64,000 nt of DNA from an uncultured Flavobacteriales bacterium (GCA_905478765.1 CAJQJY010000005.1:1-64000); one strand, 5' to 3'. Positions 21,934 to 44,087 are shown, counted from the stretch's first letter. Numbers and translations are program-made. Notes: a model not told the origin generated them from the letters alone.

Positions 21934-22020
21934 CAAATTTTTCTTAGAATTTTTGGGTCGAAGTTTATAAACATGCACACCTTAATCATCCTTAATGTTG
22001 TTAAAACAGAGTAAGTCCTT

Positions 22021-23148
22021 TTATTTCATTATTAACTTAATCTCTTTTTTACATTTTTTCCAAAAAGAAAAGAATGAGGAGTGGTATCCTTTTACAGAAA
22101 ACATCCAGTCTCTAGGTTCTTGAATTCCATTGTAGTTATAATTTAAAGGGTGTTCTTTAAATATAATTTTTTGGTGATTATAATTATTTTGAAGTTCATG
22201 AAACTCACCAACAAATAATTGTACATTTGGTATGTTTTTTTGTGATAGTGAAATCATGAATTCAATAGTCTTTTGAGCAATAGGATAATTAAAAAAAATA
22301 GAGGGTTCTAGTAGTAGAATTCTATTTGCAACAATACCTTTCTTCCAATTAGGGTCTAAATTATAGAAATTATATAATAGAGTTGGTACTTTTTCATTAA
22401 AATCTATTGATTGTTGTTTTGGTAGAGGAGTTTTTAATTTTATCAGTGATGTTTCTTTTAGAATATCAGGTGTTTCTATTCTTGCTAATTCTTCATATGA
22501 AATATCTAGAAAGGTTGTTTTTTGATTTGTAAAACAATATTTATTTATGTTGTCCTGGTTTACAATATATTTTTTATTGGCATTTGTACCTGCGACCCAT
22601 TGCCAGCTTAAAGCATTGCTTGCCCAATCTGCGTCAAGTAAATGATAATACATCCATTTTGCAGGAATTTTCCAATGATTTTGTCCAATATTGCATGTTA
22701 TTGAGGCAATGTACATTCTTAGGTGGTTATGAATATAACCCGTTTTATAAAATTCTTTTATAGCTGTATCAATAGCGTGTATTCCAGTCTCTCCTCGATT
22801 AATGGCAGTTGATATAGAATGGTTTGAAACTGGATATTGTTTATGCTTTAAGTCATGATTAATCGCATCACCTTTTGCAGTCCATATTTGTTGCCAATAG
22901 TCTCTCCAGGCTAATTCTTGAATGAATTTTTCAATCATATTAGGATGATATCCTCTATTTAGTAATTCTGAAAATATAAATTTTGTTGAAATTACACCTC
23001 TAGAAATGTATGGGGAAAGATAGCTGACAGCGCCATTAATATAGTTTCTAGTTGTACCATATCTAATTGGATCTATTTTACGAATACGCTGTAGAATCTC
23101 TGAGTAAGAAGTGGGGAATATAGAAACTTGTTGATTAAATAACTTCAT
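22021..23148 (-). CDS. Cryptochrome/photolyase-like FAD-binding protein lacking the N-terminal antenna domain
   Basis: FAD-domain motifs 'NGAVSYLSPYISRGVIST', 'FIQELAWRDYWQQIW', 'GYIHNHLRMYIASI', 'WMYYHLLDADWASNALSWQWVAGTNANKKY'. Protein begins in the FAD domain. Confidence 0.88.
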   Translation of the reverse strand: MKLFNQQVSIFPTSYSEILQRIRKIDPIRYGTTRNYINGAVSYLSPYISRGVISTKFIFSELLNRGYHPNMIEKFIQELAWRDYWQQIWTAKGDAINHDLKHKQYPVSNHSISTAINRGETGIHAIDTAIKEFYKTGYIHNHLRMYIASITCNIGQNHWKIPAKWMYYHLLDADWASNALSWQWVAGTNANKKYIVNQDNINKYCFTNQKTTFLDISYEELARIETPDILKETSLIKLKTPLPKQQSIDFNEKVPTLLYNFYNLDPNWKKGIVANRILLLEPSIFFNYPIAQKTIEFMISLSQKNIPNVQLFVGEFHELQNNYNHQKIIFKEHPLNYNYNGIQEPRDWMFSVKGYHSSFFSFWKKCKKEIKLIMK

Positions 23149-23424
23149 TTATCGTTTACTTATTTTATTTCCAGTTATATTTTTTTGTCTTTGACATTTA
23201 AAACGAGTTATTTCTGGATGTCTTTTTTTTAAGTGCTTTAAACTGACTTTACTGTTTACACGTTTTCTCCATCGCTTAAAGCTAGACACTTTTAAATTCT
23301 TCCTCATAATATGTATAACTCCACTTTCAGGCAATCCAAACTGCAACTTTATAGCTTCAAATGGAGTTCTGTCTTCCCAAGCCATTTCTATTATTCTGTC
23401 AATCTGTAGTTCATTGTAGTTCAT
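23149..23424 (-). CDS. TIGR03643/DUF2805-like protein
   Basis: 'IDRIIEMAWEDRTPFEAIKLQFGLPESGVIHIMRKNLKVSSFKRWRKRVN' is characteristic. Directly upstream of and co-oriented with the photolyase-like gene. Confidence 0.82.
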   Translation of the reverse strand: MNYNELQIDRIIEMAWEDRTPFEAIKLQFGLPESGVIHIMRKNLKVSSFKRWRKRVNSKVSLKHLKKRHPEITRFKCQRQKNITGNKISKR

Positions 23425-23506
23425 CTATTTTATTTTTACAAAAGTACAATTATAAATTTATGCATAACTTTTATAAAGAATAATTATGCAATTAATTTTT
23501 TTTTTG

Positions 23507-23514
23507 TATTTTTG
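23507..23514 (+). promoter_or_regulatory. Putative -7 box TATTTTTG of the proteorhodopsin gene
   Basis: Matches TAnnTTTG 26 nt upstream of the likely ATG at 23540. No clear -33 TTG. Confidence 0.45.
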
Positions 23515-23539
23515 TGCATTATTAATCAAAAAAAAAAAT

Positions 23540-24283
23540 ATGTTATTATCAATTATGGAACCAATAGCACCTGACAATTATGTAGCTTTTACATTTTTTC
23601 TAGGTTATATTGCAATGTTTGCTGCCTCTATCTTTTTCTTTGTTGAAAGAGGAAGCGTAGACAAAAAATGGAAGATGTCATTATTAGTATCAGCACTAAT
23701 TACAGGTATTGCTGCTGTACATTACTATTATATGAGAGATTACAATTTAGCTACAGGTGATTCACCAACATTCTTTAGATATGTTGATTGGATATTAACT
23801 GTGCCCCTTATGTGCGTAGAATTCTATCTATTAACAAAATTAGCAGGAGCTACTAAGAAATTATTATGGAAGCTAATATTTGCATCAACTTGGATGCTTG
23901 TTTGTGGTTATATTGGAGAAGCATTTAATCCTGGAGGTGACGCTGCAACTAGTCATTCTGTAACTTGGGGTATATTATCTACTGTTGGGTATTTATACAT
24001 TCTATATACTGTGTGGATAGGAGAAGTTGCGTTGTTGGCTGAAAAAAGTAACTCTGAGACAATTAAGAAAGGAGTTCGCTCATTAGCTTGGTTTGTTTTA
24101 GTTGGCTGGGCAATATATCCAATAGGCTATATGTGTATGGATGGTGGATGGTTAAGTAGTATTATGGATCCAGCATCTATCGATGTATGGTATAATATTG
24201 CTGATGCAATTAATAAAATTGGGTTTGGTTTAGTTGTTTACACAATTGCTATTTCTGAGTCGAATAAGCAATTAGCGAATTAA
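23540..24283 (+). CDS. Proteorhodopsin (light-driven proton pump type)
   Basis: 'AAVHYYYMRD' (His75 region), 'RYVDWILTVPLMCVEFYLL' (D97/T101/M105/E108 equivalents), 'DAINKIGFGLVVYTIA' (Schiff-base Lys). Start set at MLLSIMEPIAPD instead of the ORF-track ATG at 23486, which lies upstream of the promoter motif. Confidence 0.96.
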   Translation: MLLSIMEPIAPDNYVAFTFFLGYIAMFAASIFFFVERGSVDKKWKMSLLVSALITGIAAVHYYYMRDYNLATGDSPTFFRYVDWILTVPLMCVEFYLLTKLAGATKKLLWKLIFASTWMLVCGYIGEAFNPGGDAATSHSVTWGILSTVGYLYILYTVWIGEVALLAEKSNSETIKKGVRSLAWFVLVGWAIYPIGYMCMDGGWLSSIMDPASIDVWYNIADAINKIGFGLVVYTIAISESNKQLAN

Positions 24284-24305
24284 TAAGTTACAACAAAATT
24301 AAATT

Positions 24306-24334
24306 AGAGCAGGGTATTACCCTGCTCTTTTTTT
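24306..24334 (+). terminator. Rho-independent terminator between proteorhodopsin and blh
   Basis: Perfect 9-bp stem AGAGCAGGG-tatta-CCCTGCTCT followed by a T run; 4 nt separate it from the blh ATG. Confidence 0.85.
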
Positions 24335-24338
24335 AACT

Positions 24339-25247
24339 ATGAATAAACTACTTTTTATTTATATAGTTATTTGTTACTTAATTGCTTCGGTTTTTACTCT
24401 AGAAAATACAATTACTATTCAAAATCAACTTCTTGGCAGTTCAATACTAGTAATTATTTTTGGAATTCCGCATGGAGCAATAGATAATATACTTTTTCTC
24501 ACAGAAAGTAATTTATCTAAAAAAGTATTTTATTTATTATATTTCCTGAGTATGCTATTATACTGTTTTTTATGGTTTATATCACCTTTGTACTCTTTTA
24601 TATTTTTTCTTTTTATGTCTGCTTACCACTTTGGAGAATCTCAACTATCAAATTATAACATTGAAATAAATTTTTCAAAGTTTATATTCTTAATTTGGGG
24701 AGTTGCATTAATTTCAACTTTATTCTTATATAATGCTGAGGAATTATCAAATTTATTTAATAGTTATGATGACACTTCAAATTTTAGTATAATATTTAAA
24801 TATAATGTTTTAGATTTTTTATTTTACTCAAGTAATTTTGTAATAGTTTTATCATTATTATACTTAAAAATTAATAAGTTAATTACGAACGAAATATTTA
24901 GTACTGAGCTTTTTCAAATTATACTTTTACATATCACTTTTTTTATCTTTCCTGTAATTATAAGTTTTACTCTTTATTTTGTATTTCTTCATTCAATTAA
25001 GGTTCTTCTACAAGAGTATAGCTACTTAGAACAAAAAATATCTGGGTTAAATCTTATGAAATTCATTAAATTATTAGCACCATTTACCTTGCTTTCATTA
25101 TTCTTCTTTATTATATTTATTTTAATTTCTAATATTTATAATATTGATATCTCATTGTTACTATTTTTAATAATTAGTATCTCTGTTATAACGCTCCCTC
25201 ATTCAATATCGATGACAAGTTTTTACGATAAAATTAATTTTAAATAA
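24339..25247 (+). CDS. blh: Brp/Blh-family beta-carotene 15,15'-dioxygenase (retinal synthesis)
   Basis: 'FGIPHGAIDNILF', 'SAYHFGESQL', C-term 'ITLPHSISMTSFYDK', polytopic, adjacent to proteorhodopsin. Confidence 0.9.
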   Translation: MNKLLFIYIVICYLIASVFTLENTITIQNQLLGSSILVIIFGIPHGAIDNILFLTESNLSKKVFYLLYFLSMLLYCFLWFISPLYSFIFFLFMSAYHFGESQLSNYNIEINFSKFIFLIWGVALISTLFLYNAEELSNLFNSYDDTSNFSIIFKYNVLDFLFYSSNFVIVLSLLYLKINKLITNEIFSTELFQIILLHITFFIFPVIISFTLYFVFLHSIKVLLQEYSYLEQKISGLNLMKFIKLLAPFTLLSLFFFIIFILISNIYNIDISLLLFLIISISVITLPHSISMTSFYDKINFK

Positions 25248-25256
25248 TACTATAAA

Positions 25257-25673
25257 ATGTTACTTGAAGTAATCCAAAAAGATATTGATATAAATGATTT
25301 CGTTAATGACACCTGCGGTAAAGAATTTACAATAATCAATAGAATTGTTAAAAATAATTATGGGTCGTGTCGATATAAATTATTAAAAATAAAACCTATC
25401 AAATTTAATATTGATTTAGAAAAATATACCGAAAGCATTTATCTTAATTTTGATTTAAGAACAAATGGAATTGTATTTTATTTTAGACATAAAAACACAG
25501 AATATGTTGAGTTTTGTAAATTCAATCAATTCTCATTTCAATCAAATGATGATTCATTTATCATACAAACTGACAAAAATATTTATGACTTGAAAATTTT
25601 AGATAAATTAAAACACAAAAGATTTCTTGTTAGGCTTTATAAGTTTAAAATTGAATCTGAAAAAATAAAATGA
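25257..25673 (+). CDS. Hypothetical protein in blh operon (138 aa)
   Basis: Open frame 9 nt downstream of blh; its TGA overlaps the next ATG (ATGA). No family recognised. Confidence 0.7.
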   Translation: MLLEVIQKDIDINDFVNDTCGKEFTIINRIVKNNYGSCRYKLLKIKPIKFNIDLEKYTESIYLNFDLRTNGIVFYFRHKNTEYVEFCKFNQFSFQSNDDSFIIQTDKNIYDLKILDKLKHKRFLVRLYKFKIESEKIK

Positions 25674-26149
25674 AAAGACCATGGAATCGTATAAATCCTA
25701 ATGTTTATAGTTTAATGACTTCATGTGAGGAAGCAGGTTACAACATGAATATTTGCACTTATGTATCTGTTGTTAATATCAAACCAAAAATATATTTAAT
25801 TTCTATAGACAAAAGTACTTTAACATACAAAAATTTAACTAACAAACCAGTTAGTATTGTTTTGCAGTCGTTAAGTATAAAAAACATTAAACTAGTTAAA
25901 TTGTTAGGTAAAAAATCAGGTTTTACTTACAACAAACAAAAGTTCCTTGAGAATAGAAAGCTCACTTCTGTTTGGAAAGGCAATAATGTTTTAAATGATT
26001 GTTGTTTTTTAATCGAACTTCATAAGTTAAAAGAAATACATGAAATGAATGACCACTGTATATTTACATTTGAGGTTAAATCATTTGAAAATATTAGTGA
26101 TGATTTTTTATTATTTCAAAGTTTAATAGAAAATAAAATTATTTTATGA
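25670..26149 (+). CDS. Flavin reductase-like (FMN-binding split barrel) protein
   Basis: 'RINPNVYSLMTSCEEAGYNMNICTYVSVVNIKPKIYLISIDKSTLTYKNL' resembles flavin reductase-like proteins. Confidence 0.7.
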   Translation: MKRPWNRINPNVYSLMTSCEEAGYNMNICTYVSVVNIKPKIYLISIDKSTLTYKNLTNKPVSIVLQSLSIKNIKLVKLLGKKSGFTYNKQKFLENRKLTSVWKGNNVLNDCCFLIELHKLKEIHEMNDHCIFTFEVKSFENISDDFLLFQSLIENKIIL

Positions 26150-26159
26150 TTACACAATA

Positions 26160-27023
26160 ATGATAAAAATTATTGATTTATTTCATGCAAAAGTTTTTTC
26201 AGAAAAAAATATTAAAAATTTTGAAAAACTTATTCTTTATTTTGCTGTTGGCGGATTTTTAATTCACTTAGTACTCGTTTTTTTAAACCTAAAGTATAAC
26301 ATTAATTATTTTGTTGGACTTGATAATTTATTATCTAATCCTATTTCTGCACTTTATACGCCCTTCTCTTTTATTTTAGTTTATGAAGCCTTTTTACTTA
26401 TTTTTTATTTCCCAAGATCTTTCACTACATCTATAGCAAAAGAGTATGAAATAATTTCACTAGTTTTGATTAGAAAAATTTTTGAGGATATTCCTGAGTT
26501 AAATCTTGATTCAGGAATCTACAATCAACAAAGTTTATTATTATTATATGATTTGATTGCTATAATTATAATATTCTACTTAATATTTTTATTTAAAAAG
26601 ACTATTTCAACTATACCTAAAAGAAAGCCTAATAAAAATTTAGTTCGTTTTATTTCTTACAAAAAAACTCTTAGCATTATCTTATTACCACTCCTTCTTA
26701 TTCTATGTATTTCAAATTTATTTGATTGGACTTATTCAGTTTTTATAAATAATGAAATTGTAGAAAATATTAATGCAGTTTTCTTTATCGATTTTTTTAC
26801 TGTTTTAATTCTAGTAGATGTATTTGTTCTGCTAATCTCTTTTCAGTACACTGATAAATACCATCAAATAATAAGAAATACAGGTTTTATTATTTCAACT
26901 ATTTTATTACGATTGTCATTTAGTGTCAGTGGAATATCAAGTATTTTGATTCTAATAATAGGTATTATATTCGGCTTAATAATTTTAAGAATTTATCGTC
27001 TTACAGAATTGAATTCTAATTAA
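26160..27023 (+). CDS. Polytopic integral membrane protein of unknown function
   Basis: 287 aa with about 6-7 hydrophobic segments; starts 10 nt after the flavin-reductase-like gene. Confidence 0.7.
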   Translation: MIKIIDLFHAKVFSEKNIKNFEKLILYFAVGGFLIHLVLVFLNLKYNINYFVGLDNLLSNPISALYTPFSFILVYEAFLLIFYFPRSFTTSIAKEYEIISLVLIRKIFEDIPELNLDSGIYNQQSLLLLYDLIAIIIIFYLIFLFKKTISTIPKRKPNKNLVRFISYKKTLSIILLPLLLILCISNLFDWTYSVFINNEIVENINAVFFIDFFTVLILVDVFVLLISFQYTDKYHQIIRNTGFIISTILLRLSFSVSGISSILILIIGIIFGLIILRIYRLTELNSN

Positions 27024-27156
27024 TTTTATAAGTTTTTTTGGTAGGCACTGCGGTCTTAAGTTCGAAATTTTTTAGGAAAGTATTGAATGTAAGTTTCTAA
27101 TCTTACTCACCTGCCACTTTTCACTTTTTTGCTAATAAATATTTATTGTACATTTG

Positions 27157-27378
27157 GTTAGCAAAATACTTTACGAAATTAGCTTTATATCAGAAACTGT
27201 ACAGGACTTAAAAGTTAGAATGTTTAATGTAGTTGGAGAGGAGTTGATAGCTCATGACTTGTAGCAGTTTATTGGTGAGTAGAATAATCAGATTAACTTA
27301 GAAGATAATACTAAAGGTATCTATTTCTTAGAGATAGAGACAAATGATGGGATTATTAATAAAAAGCTAATCTTATAA
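27157..27378 (+). pseudogene. Remnant of a T9SS type A C-terminal sorting domain
   Basis: In-frame reading VSKILYEISFISETVQDLKVRMFNVVGEELIAHDL*QFIGE*NNQINLEDNTKGIYFLEIETNDGIINKKLIL* matches the T9SS tail pattern. Two internal TAG codons (27262-27264, 27280-27282). Confidence 0.85.
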
Positions 27379-27389
27379 TAAGTTAACAA

Positions 27390-27417
27390 AGAGCAGGTTT
27401 TAAAACCTGCTTTTTTT
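27390..27417 (+). terminator. Rho-independent terminator
   Basis: 20-nt perfect palindrome AGCAGGTTTTAAAACCTGCT (27392-27411) followed by a T run. Confidence 0.8.
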
Positions 27418-27531
27418 AATACATTTGCTGTGTAGCTCTGATGCATAAAATAGCGAGGGACCCTATTCGGGTACCTTTGATCATGTCATCTCTAGTAGGA
27501 TATAGTACTGCTACAACGATATTTTTCTCTT

Positions 27532-42554: not shown

Positions 42555-43325
42555 ATGAAATTATTTTCAAAAAAATATGGTGATAAAGGGCAGGATTTAA
42601 TTGTTATTCATGGGTTGTTTGGCATGAGTGATAATTGGAATACTCTTGGAAAAAAATTTGCTAAATATTGCAAGGTGCATTTAATCGATTTAAGAAATCA
42701 TGGTAGATCTCTGCATGCTGAAGAGTTTAATTATGAGGTAATGTGTGAGGATGTTTTGGAATATATGGAGGATCATAATATTCAAAAACTAATACTATTA
42801 GGACATTCTTTGGGTGGAAAAGTGGCCATGAAATTTGCCTTTACACATCCTGAAAAGATTGAAAAATTAATAGTAGCAGATATTGCCCCTAGAGAGTATA
42901 ATAGTGATTTTTATAAAAACCTTTTGGCAACTTTATACAAACTGCCTTTAGGGGATTTTGATAAAAGAGAAGAAATTGACAAATTACTTTCGTTTAGTTT
43001 TGAGGATAAAGGAATGCGCCTGTTTCTTTTAAAAAACCTTTATAGAGATGAAAACAAGGAATTTGCTTGGCGTTTTAATATTGAAGTTCTTTTGGAAAAA
43101 GTAAATAATATACAAGAAGCCGATTTTGTAAAAGGAATTTGTAAAATTCCAACTCATTTTATAAGAGGAGGAAACTCAAATTACATAACAACACAAGACG
43201 AACTAATTATAAATAAACACTTTTCTGATTTTAGTATTGCTACTATTGGTGGTGCAGGACACTGGTTGCATGCGGAGAATCCAGAACGCTTTTATAATGA
43301 GGTTATGGGATTTTGTTTAATGTAA
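42555..43325 (+). CDS. Alpha/beta-hydrolase (YbfF-like esterase)
   Basis: 'LIVIHGLFGMSDNWNTLGKKFA', 'LLGHSLGGKVAMKFA' nucleophile elbow, 'GAGHWLHAENPERF'. Confidence 0.88.
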   Translation: MKLFSKKYGDKGQDLIVIHGLFGMSDNWNTLGKKFAKYCKVHLIDLRNHGRSLHAEEFNYEVMCEDVLEYMEDHNIQKLILLGHSLGGKVAMKFAFTHPEKIEKLIVADIAPREYNSDFYKNLLATLYKLPLGDFDKREEIDKLLSFSFEDKGMRLFLLKNLYRDENKEFAWRFNIEVLLEKVNNIQEADFVKGICKIPTHFIRGGNSNYITTQDELIINKHFSDFSIATIGGAGHWLHAENPERFYNEVMGFCLM

Positions 43326-43353: not shown

Positions 43354-43587
43354 TTACGGTAGATTAGTGAGGTATTTTAAGTAATATCTATTCAGACAAG
43401 AAGTAGTTCTTTTCAATTCAGAATTTTTCCAAGCTGCTGCATAACATTCTTTTTTACAATTCATTTTCGGATATCCTGCGTCTTGTGCAACCCCCAAAAC
43501 CATTACATAAGCATTTGTCGGGGGTTTTTCTGCTGGCTGACTGCAAGCAAAAGAAAATGGTATAATTAAATAAACTAAATTTCTCAT
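43354..43587 (-). pseudogene. N-terminal fragment of a PqqB-like MBL-fold hydrolase
   Basis: 77-aa ORF 'YVMVLGVAQDAGYPKMNCKKECYAAAWKNSELKRTTSCL...' matches the N-terminus of PqqB-like MBL proteins; the metal-binding core is absent. Confidence 0.7.
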
Positions 43588-44087
43588 TTTATGATTTTTT
43601 CAAAACAATAATATTTGTCTTTTTCAGGCTTTAAATCTATTGTGCCGAGTTCTGTATATCCAAGCCTTCTGTAAAATTCCATTGCTTTTGGATTTCCAGA
43701 ATAGGTATCCAATCGTATGGATTGATATCCTTCTTCTGCAACAACCTCTTCCACAAATAACATCAGTTCTTTCCCAATTCCATCTCCCCATTTTTCTTCA
43801 AATACCGCTAACCTGTGGACAACTAAAAACTTGTTTGTTTTATCTGCCCAGTCAATAGTTAAATAAGTTTTATCTTGATTTTCATCAATATTAATTCCTC
43901 CAATTATTCCTCCATTTTCTTCTGCTACAAAGTAAGTTCTTGCTTTCAAGTCAGCTATAATTACATCAACATTCGGGTAGCTTGAATCCCATTGATCTAT
44001 CCCGTTTTTTAGCATCCCGTTAACACAGGAATTATACATTAACATTATATTCCCAAGATCAGATTTATTTGCTTTACGGATTATCAT
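43584..44087 (-). CDS. GNAT-family N-acetyltransferase
   Basis: 'FLVVHRLAVFEEKWGDGIGKELMLFVEEVVAEEGYQSIRLDTYSGNPKAMEFYRRLGYTELG'. Confidence 0.9.
   Translation of the reverse strand: MIIRKANKSDLGNIMLMYNSCVNGMLKNGIDQWDSSYPNVDVIIADLKARTYFVAEENGGIIGGINIDENQDKTYLTIDWADKTNKFLVVHRLAVFEEKWGDGIGKELMLFVEEVVAEEGYQSIRLDTYSGNPKAMEFYRRLGYTELGTIDLKPEKDKYYCFEKIIK

Follow-up and report, generated by a model that had tools for sequence, protein, structure and literature searches.

Emmerich and co-workers are said to have described in 2020 a class of photolyases known as NewPHL or short photolyase-like (SPL). This class is described as having an inverted domain topology and as repairing cyclobutane pyrimidine dimers (CPDs) in single-stranded DNA (PMC13274461). 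Marine Flavobacteriia are described as carrying the proteorhodopsin (PR) gene followed by blh, with PR-bearing strains being richer in photolyases; for these strains a "solar panel" strategy has been proposed, by which ultraviolet (UV) damage is tolerated and then repaired (Kumagai et al., 2018, PMC5932025). Here we analyzed 64,000 nt of DNA (the window) from an uncultured Flavobacteriales bacterium (GCA_905478765.1 CAJQJY010000005.1:1-64000), whose genome (G000; assembly of 1.6 Mb, 98.6% complete) has seven adjacent genes at 22021–27023 encoding a short photolyase, a DUF2805 protein, PR, Blh, a 138-aa protein (U138), a 159-aa flavin-reductase-like protein (FLR), and a 287-aa membrane protein. 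Each of these proteins was searched against 80 relatives, and 40 neighborhoods were fetched and their genes clustered; G and L numbers are our handles for genomes and loci. We found that U138, FLR, and the short photolyase form a recurrent cassette, and from the sequence comparisons we think it fairly probable that phototrophy and photorepair are packaged together in one block.

A sequence-only reading of this DNA had seen a compact light island around PR, with U138, FLR, and the 287-aa protein as three partners of blh. All seven open reading frames (ORFs) were found where it had placed them except for the probable start of PR, and its spacings were exact: 9 nt between blh and U138 (25257..25673, plus strand), a 4-nt ATGA overlap (25670–25673) between U138 and FLR (25670..26149, plus strand), and 10 nt between FLR and the 287-aa ORF. 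The compact island is supported by our comparisons. The reading had named co-occurrence with PR and blh in other genomes as a test of its idea, and here U138 and FLR held up while the 287-aa protein, which is unlinked elsewhere, did not. The order PR-blh-U138-FLR was observed in G044 and L147, and PR-blh-U138-FLR-short photolyase, all on a single strand, in G017, G036, and G027. U138 and FLR are adjacent in 10 other genomes, with the proteins conserved. U138-FLR-short photolyase without adjacent PR or blh occurs in G078, G493, G504, and G521 (another family), mostly with 4-nt overlaps, and FLR adjoins the photolyase in G029. Of 348 Flavobacteriales genomes, 25 had FLR, 41 had the short photolyase, and 20 had both (Fisher p=6.5e-17, in counts that ignore shared descent); the five FLR genomes without a short photolyase are metagenome-assembled genomes that are 53–84% complete. 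Because U138-FLR accompanies the short photolyase even where PR and blh are not adjacent, photorepair fits these genes better than the flavin/redox or signalling branch that had been proposed for them.

The photolyase (22021..23148, minus strand, 375 aa) had been called photolyase-like, which is right as to its photolyase flavin adenine dinucleotide (FAD) domain (PF03441, residues 75–197, E=6e-25) but leaves out its domain layout. The N-terminal antenna domain is absent (PF00875 was not found in a family profile search of the protein) and the C-terminal domain is different. A FAD/catalytic domain (residues ~1–225) comes first and an alpha/beta domain (~245–375) comes last, an inverted order with the N-terminal layout of NewPHL/SPL proteins. 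Photolyases in the PDB match residues 29–195 through their C-terminal halves only (~196–420). Residues E78, W81, N178, W182, and W184, which we take to be the CPD-photolyase active-site residues, are invariant. With hhalign, the catalytic domain could be matched to those of alphaproteobacterial proteins that share this layout (99.9% probability, E=7e-34, 193 columns). In a tree of 67 sequences, 34 Bacteroidota proteins formed one clade (100/95, ultrafast bootstrap (UFBoot)/SH-aLRT) apart from class I/DASH and iron-sulfur photolyases. This clade joins the alphaproteobacterial NewPHL-layout proteins at 96 UFBoot and 75 SH-aLRT, a provisional join given the long branches. The layout and tree placement are thus consistent with the NewPHL/SPL class, subject to that join. 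In an AlphaFold2 (AF2) model, strands and helices alternate at 256–374, with a predicted local distance difference test score (pLDDT) of mostly 70–96. In a Deinococcus relative, PF00875 lies at the C-terminal end (E=7e-4), which supports the idea of a permuted antenna domain. Comparing the C-terminus with photolyase antenna domains and with alphaproteobacterial NewPHL-like C-termini by hhalign gave nothing significant. A fold search with the whole model (mean pLDDT 69) returned weak matches because the catalytic half is poorly modelled on a 13-sequence alignment.

Directly upstream on the same strand is a 91-aa DUF2805/TIGR03643 protein (23149..23424, minus strand, E=6e-34). The same pair occurs in G024 and G048, and DUF2805 is directly upstream in G523. 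The 375-aa protein is the sole PF03441 protein that we found in G000, and no photolyase was found in near-complete congeners that do not have blh (G006, G012, and G013). Among 37 members of the family, photolyases of any kind are associated with blh (p=1e-5).

The rhodopsin and the Brp/Blh dioxygenase lie side by side. PR (23540..24283, plus strand; PF01036, E=3e-42) has 247 aa with a corrected start, and blh (24339..25247, plus strand; PF15461, E=9e-41; TIGR03753) encodes a beta-carotene 15,15'-dioxygenase of 302 aa. Between them the sequence-only reading overlooked a terminator-like hairpin with a T run (24306..24335, plus strand), whose 10-pair stem (24306–24328) stops 10 nt short of the start codon of blh. 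A strong hairpin was present in the PR-blh gap of 14 of 15 loci sampled across genera at one or two per genus (z of –3.5 to –7.5 against dinucleotide shuffles), ending 3–15 nt before the blh start where measured. Its sequence varies and its structure is kept (window; L077–L080, L098, L109–L113, L147, and L197). As a control, we took the 39 unique same-strand gaps of 38–78 nt in the fetched loci; 11 had a strong hairpin and 10 of these were PR-blh gaps. In the window a G+C-rich stem is followed by a T run, as in an intrinsic terminator, and 13 other loci have the hairpin, with only a weak T run in G019 and G069.

Close gene spacing starts with blh and not with PR, as the hairpin separates the two, and this conserved structure casts doubt on a single simple transcript beginning at PR. 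The hairpin ends too near the blh start for a promoter to fit in between, and expression of blh and the following genes should therefore need read-through or a promoter within PR. Judging from the sequence, they probably depend on read-through past the hairpin. Most PR transcripts would then stop after PR, and read-through would yield less Blh, U138, and FLR. With partial read-through, Blh, which is needed in catalytic amounts, would be made in proportion to the abundant opsin but below it. The hairpin would account in a simple way for one promoter serving both an abundant opsin and a catalytic enzyme. Searches of an open-licence library turned up no mention of a terminator between PR and blh. 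A paper on Dokdonia PRO95 reports that blh is weakly expressed (PMC3587595); the PR-blh gap of that strain lies outside our sample.

PR would be transcribed from its own promoter and would pump protons with retinal made by Blh. A candidate –7 element of the Bacteroidetes type TAnnTTTG, TATTTTTG, lies at 23507..23514 on the plus strand. The start previously given for PR, 23486, is upstream of this element; the alignment with relatives and the promoter position make 23540, downstream of it, the probable start. A second candidate –7 element, TACTTTTG, at 23439..23446 on the minus strand may serve a DUF2805-photolyase transcript. Both are motif matches only. TAnnTTTG was counted 19 times compared with ~10 in mononucleotide shuffles, and many sites are within genes, so individual sites are weak evidence. 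A sigma-70 promoter scan (60 sites versus 42 expected in shuffles) was set aside as uninformative for Bacteroidota.

Fold and profile searches, which the sequence-only reading had called for on the three proteins behind blh, gave matches for two of them. FLR matches the split-barrel domain PF01613 (E=5e-12; 46.7 bits, above the curated cut-off of 27), and its nearest solved relatives include the NADH-dependent flavin reductases PheA2 (1rz0) and HPAH reductase (5zc2; profile E=5e-6 to 7e-4). Family profile searches matched no family for U138 or the 287-aa protein. U138 belongs to a Bacteroidota family that has no Pfam model, and a search against PDB sequences gave nothing significant for it. 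Its AF2 model (pLDDT 86) consists of strands followed by a helix at 117–136, and Foldseek matched this predicted barrel to PH/EVH1/PTB domains (probability 1.0, best E=3e-3, template modelling score ~0.5). Members of the U138 family occur in ~6% of the Bacteroidia genomes sampled; they adjoin DUF2805 at four loci and photolyases at some.

Photolyases work only while their FAD stays fully reduced, and to our knowledge the reductant in cells is generally not known. In the explanation that we favor, a mobile island brings together the use of light and the repair of light damage. The short photolyase, on the opposite strand, would use light and FADH– to repair UV lesions in DNA, and U138 and FLR would belong functionally with it. 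FLR would most likely pass electrons from NAD(P)H to give reduced flavin, or keep the photolyase FAD reduced, and the PH-like U138 would most likely be an adaptor between FLR and the photolyase. We put forward a specific route for electrons from FLR to the photolyase as a tentative suggestion. We regard as similarly speculative the fuller proposal that FLR is a dedicated NAD(P)H reductase keeping the inverted photolyase as FADH–, with U138 as a coupling adaptor, and that this three-part system has been appended to PR-blh in several marine lineages, where a conserved attenuator sets the ratio of opsin to Blh.

Several observations weigh against this explanation. The photolyase of the window is on the opposite strand from U138-FLR, so it is not co-transcribed with them here. 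FLR and the short photolyase are not adjacent in genomes of family f9, where U138 faces a run of SRPBCC-FLR-second flavin reductase-photolyase, or of genus g8, where U138 faces a short photolyase. U138 is often away from photolyases, in places with no obvious light genes nearby, and its role may be broader; its fold match is modest. The neglect of shared descent in the co-occurrence counts belongs here too.

Other arrangements were seen around these genes. Four genomes of genus g9 encode a GIY-YIG nuclease-like protein directly behind PR-blh, with the photolyase next, which indicates that the linkage of photolyase to PR has more than one form. This order, with a 260-aa GIY-YIG protein and a short photolyase, is found at L197:1927–5600 and L035–L038 and places another possible repair gene behind blh. 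In G496, the ORF behind PR-blh is a damaged photolyase. A second flavin-reductase-like family (~210 aa, PF01613) repeatedly adjoins photolyases (L082, L083, L211–L215, and L091–L093), and in genus g8 such a gene lies between short and iron-sulfur type photolyases. When FLR is away from a photolyase, it is often near genes for small copper proteins that are azurin- or plastocyanin-like (L086, L089, L215; L084, L087). Locus L147 (PAJD01000014.1) is titled Candidatus Neomarinimicrobiota; its PR-blh-U138-FLR is very close to that of G044 and the contig is probably mis-binned or mis-named.

It is conceivable, though we consider it improbable, that U138 and FLR instead serve retinal or carotenoid metabolism, for example by giving Blh redox support or handling its retinal, and that the photolyase link only reflects the clustering of light genes. 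U138-FLR lies directly behind blh in the window and in the five other loci with PR noted above, blh accompanies FLR in 16 of 25 (p=1e-12), and a CrtI-like gene is near FLR in G496. However, in G078, G493, G504, and G521 the cassette adjoins the photolyase and not blh, and our searches found blh in none of G483, G493, and G521. We also know of no Blh enzyme that needs a flavin partner.

The island lies at a site where genomes differ. In blastn/blastp comparisons, related genomes lack a block at 21934..27531 at their sucB|korB junction: in G018, G003, G007, and G010, korB is close behind sucB and the 5.6 kb that lies between them in the window is missing. Nothing occupies the junction in G018 and almost nothing in G003, G007, and G010, and G001, G004, and G012 have other inserts there; on this comparison it is an insertion hot spot. 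SucA is 85–94% identical within the genus. The photolyase of the window is 84–86% identical to that of another genus and only 63% to that of its own. For Blh, identity is 68% with a third genus and 50–52% within its own. Since both are closer to other genera, the block is probably not the inherited copy of the genus. The different inserts and the different closest genera of photolyase and Blh are also what would be expected of a chance collection of independently acquired, functionally unconnected genes. We consider this quite unlikely, because the same gene sets recur across genera and families, in varied orders and with overlapping reading frames. Within the block, the sequence at 27168–27380 contains two in-frame stops and looks like the decayed remains of a C-terminal sorting domain for type IX secretion; a hairpin with a T run lies behind it at 27392–27417. 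A PADLOC search for defense roles gave no hits.

The 287-aa polytopic membrane protein (26160..27023, plus strand) is a bystander, brought next to FLR by rearrangement and not a conserved member. It was found in 18 of 80 relatives and never near PR, blh, or FLR in those examined. In congeners with an 83–86% identical copy, the gene is between homologues of the window genes at 42555–43325 and 43584–44087, ~16 kb away, where the window has a 258-bp gap. Its placement 10 nt after FLR is therefore due to a rearrangement that only G000 shows, and we rejected the protein as a member of the operon. The PR-blh pair of G019 adjoins a homologue of the window gene at 42555–43325, the place of the 287-aa gene in congeners (L113:2818–4607 and L097:6948–8021), which may be a second hot spot. 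A light-linked flavin/redox or signalling branch of PR that includes this membrane protein, as the sequence-only reading proposed, has in its favor the gene order of this one window and the similarity of FLR to flavin reductases, and we consider it very unlikely given the protein's separate ancestral site and the finding that family profile searches of the seven genes showed no transducer, kinase, or sensor domain.

Compared with known systems, the photolyase of the window resembles NewPHL/SPL proteins in having its catalytic domain first, no N-terminal antenna domain, and an alpha/beta domain last. Unlike them it belongs to a separate Bacteroidota clade, and its C-terminal domain has no similarity to those of the alphaproteobacterial NewPHL-like proteins that hhalign could detect. 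FLR shares the PF01613 split barrel of short-chain flavin reductases such as PheA2 and HPAH reductase. Unlike these, it has no monooxygenase partner and its usual company is a photolyase; this recurrent partner makes the question of the photolyase reductant directly testable. As in the marine Flavobacteriia described before, PR is followed by blh. Neither photorepair genes joined to PR-blh nor a hairpin between the two turned up in the literature passages retrieved by term search. Unlike the described pair, the locus analyzed here joins photorepair genes to the PR-blh unit and has a conserved hairpin between PR and blh. With a proton pump physically linked to the only photolyase found in the genome, it would be a gene-level form of the "solar panel" strategy.

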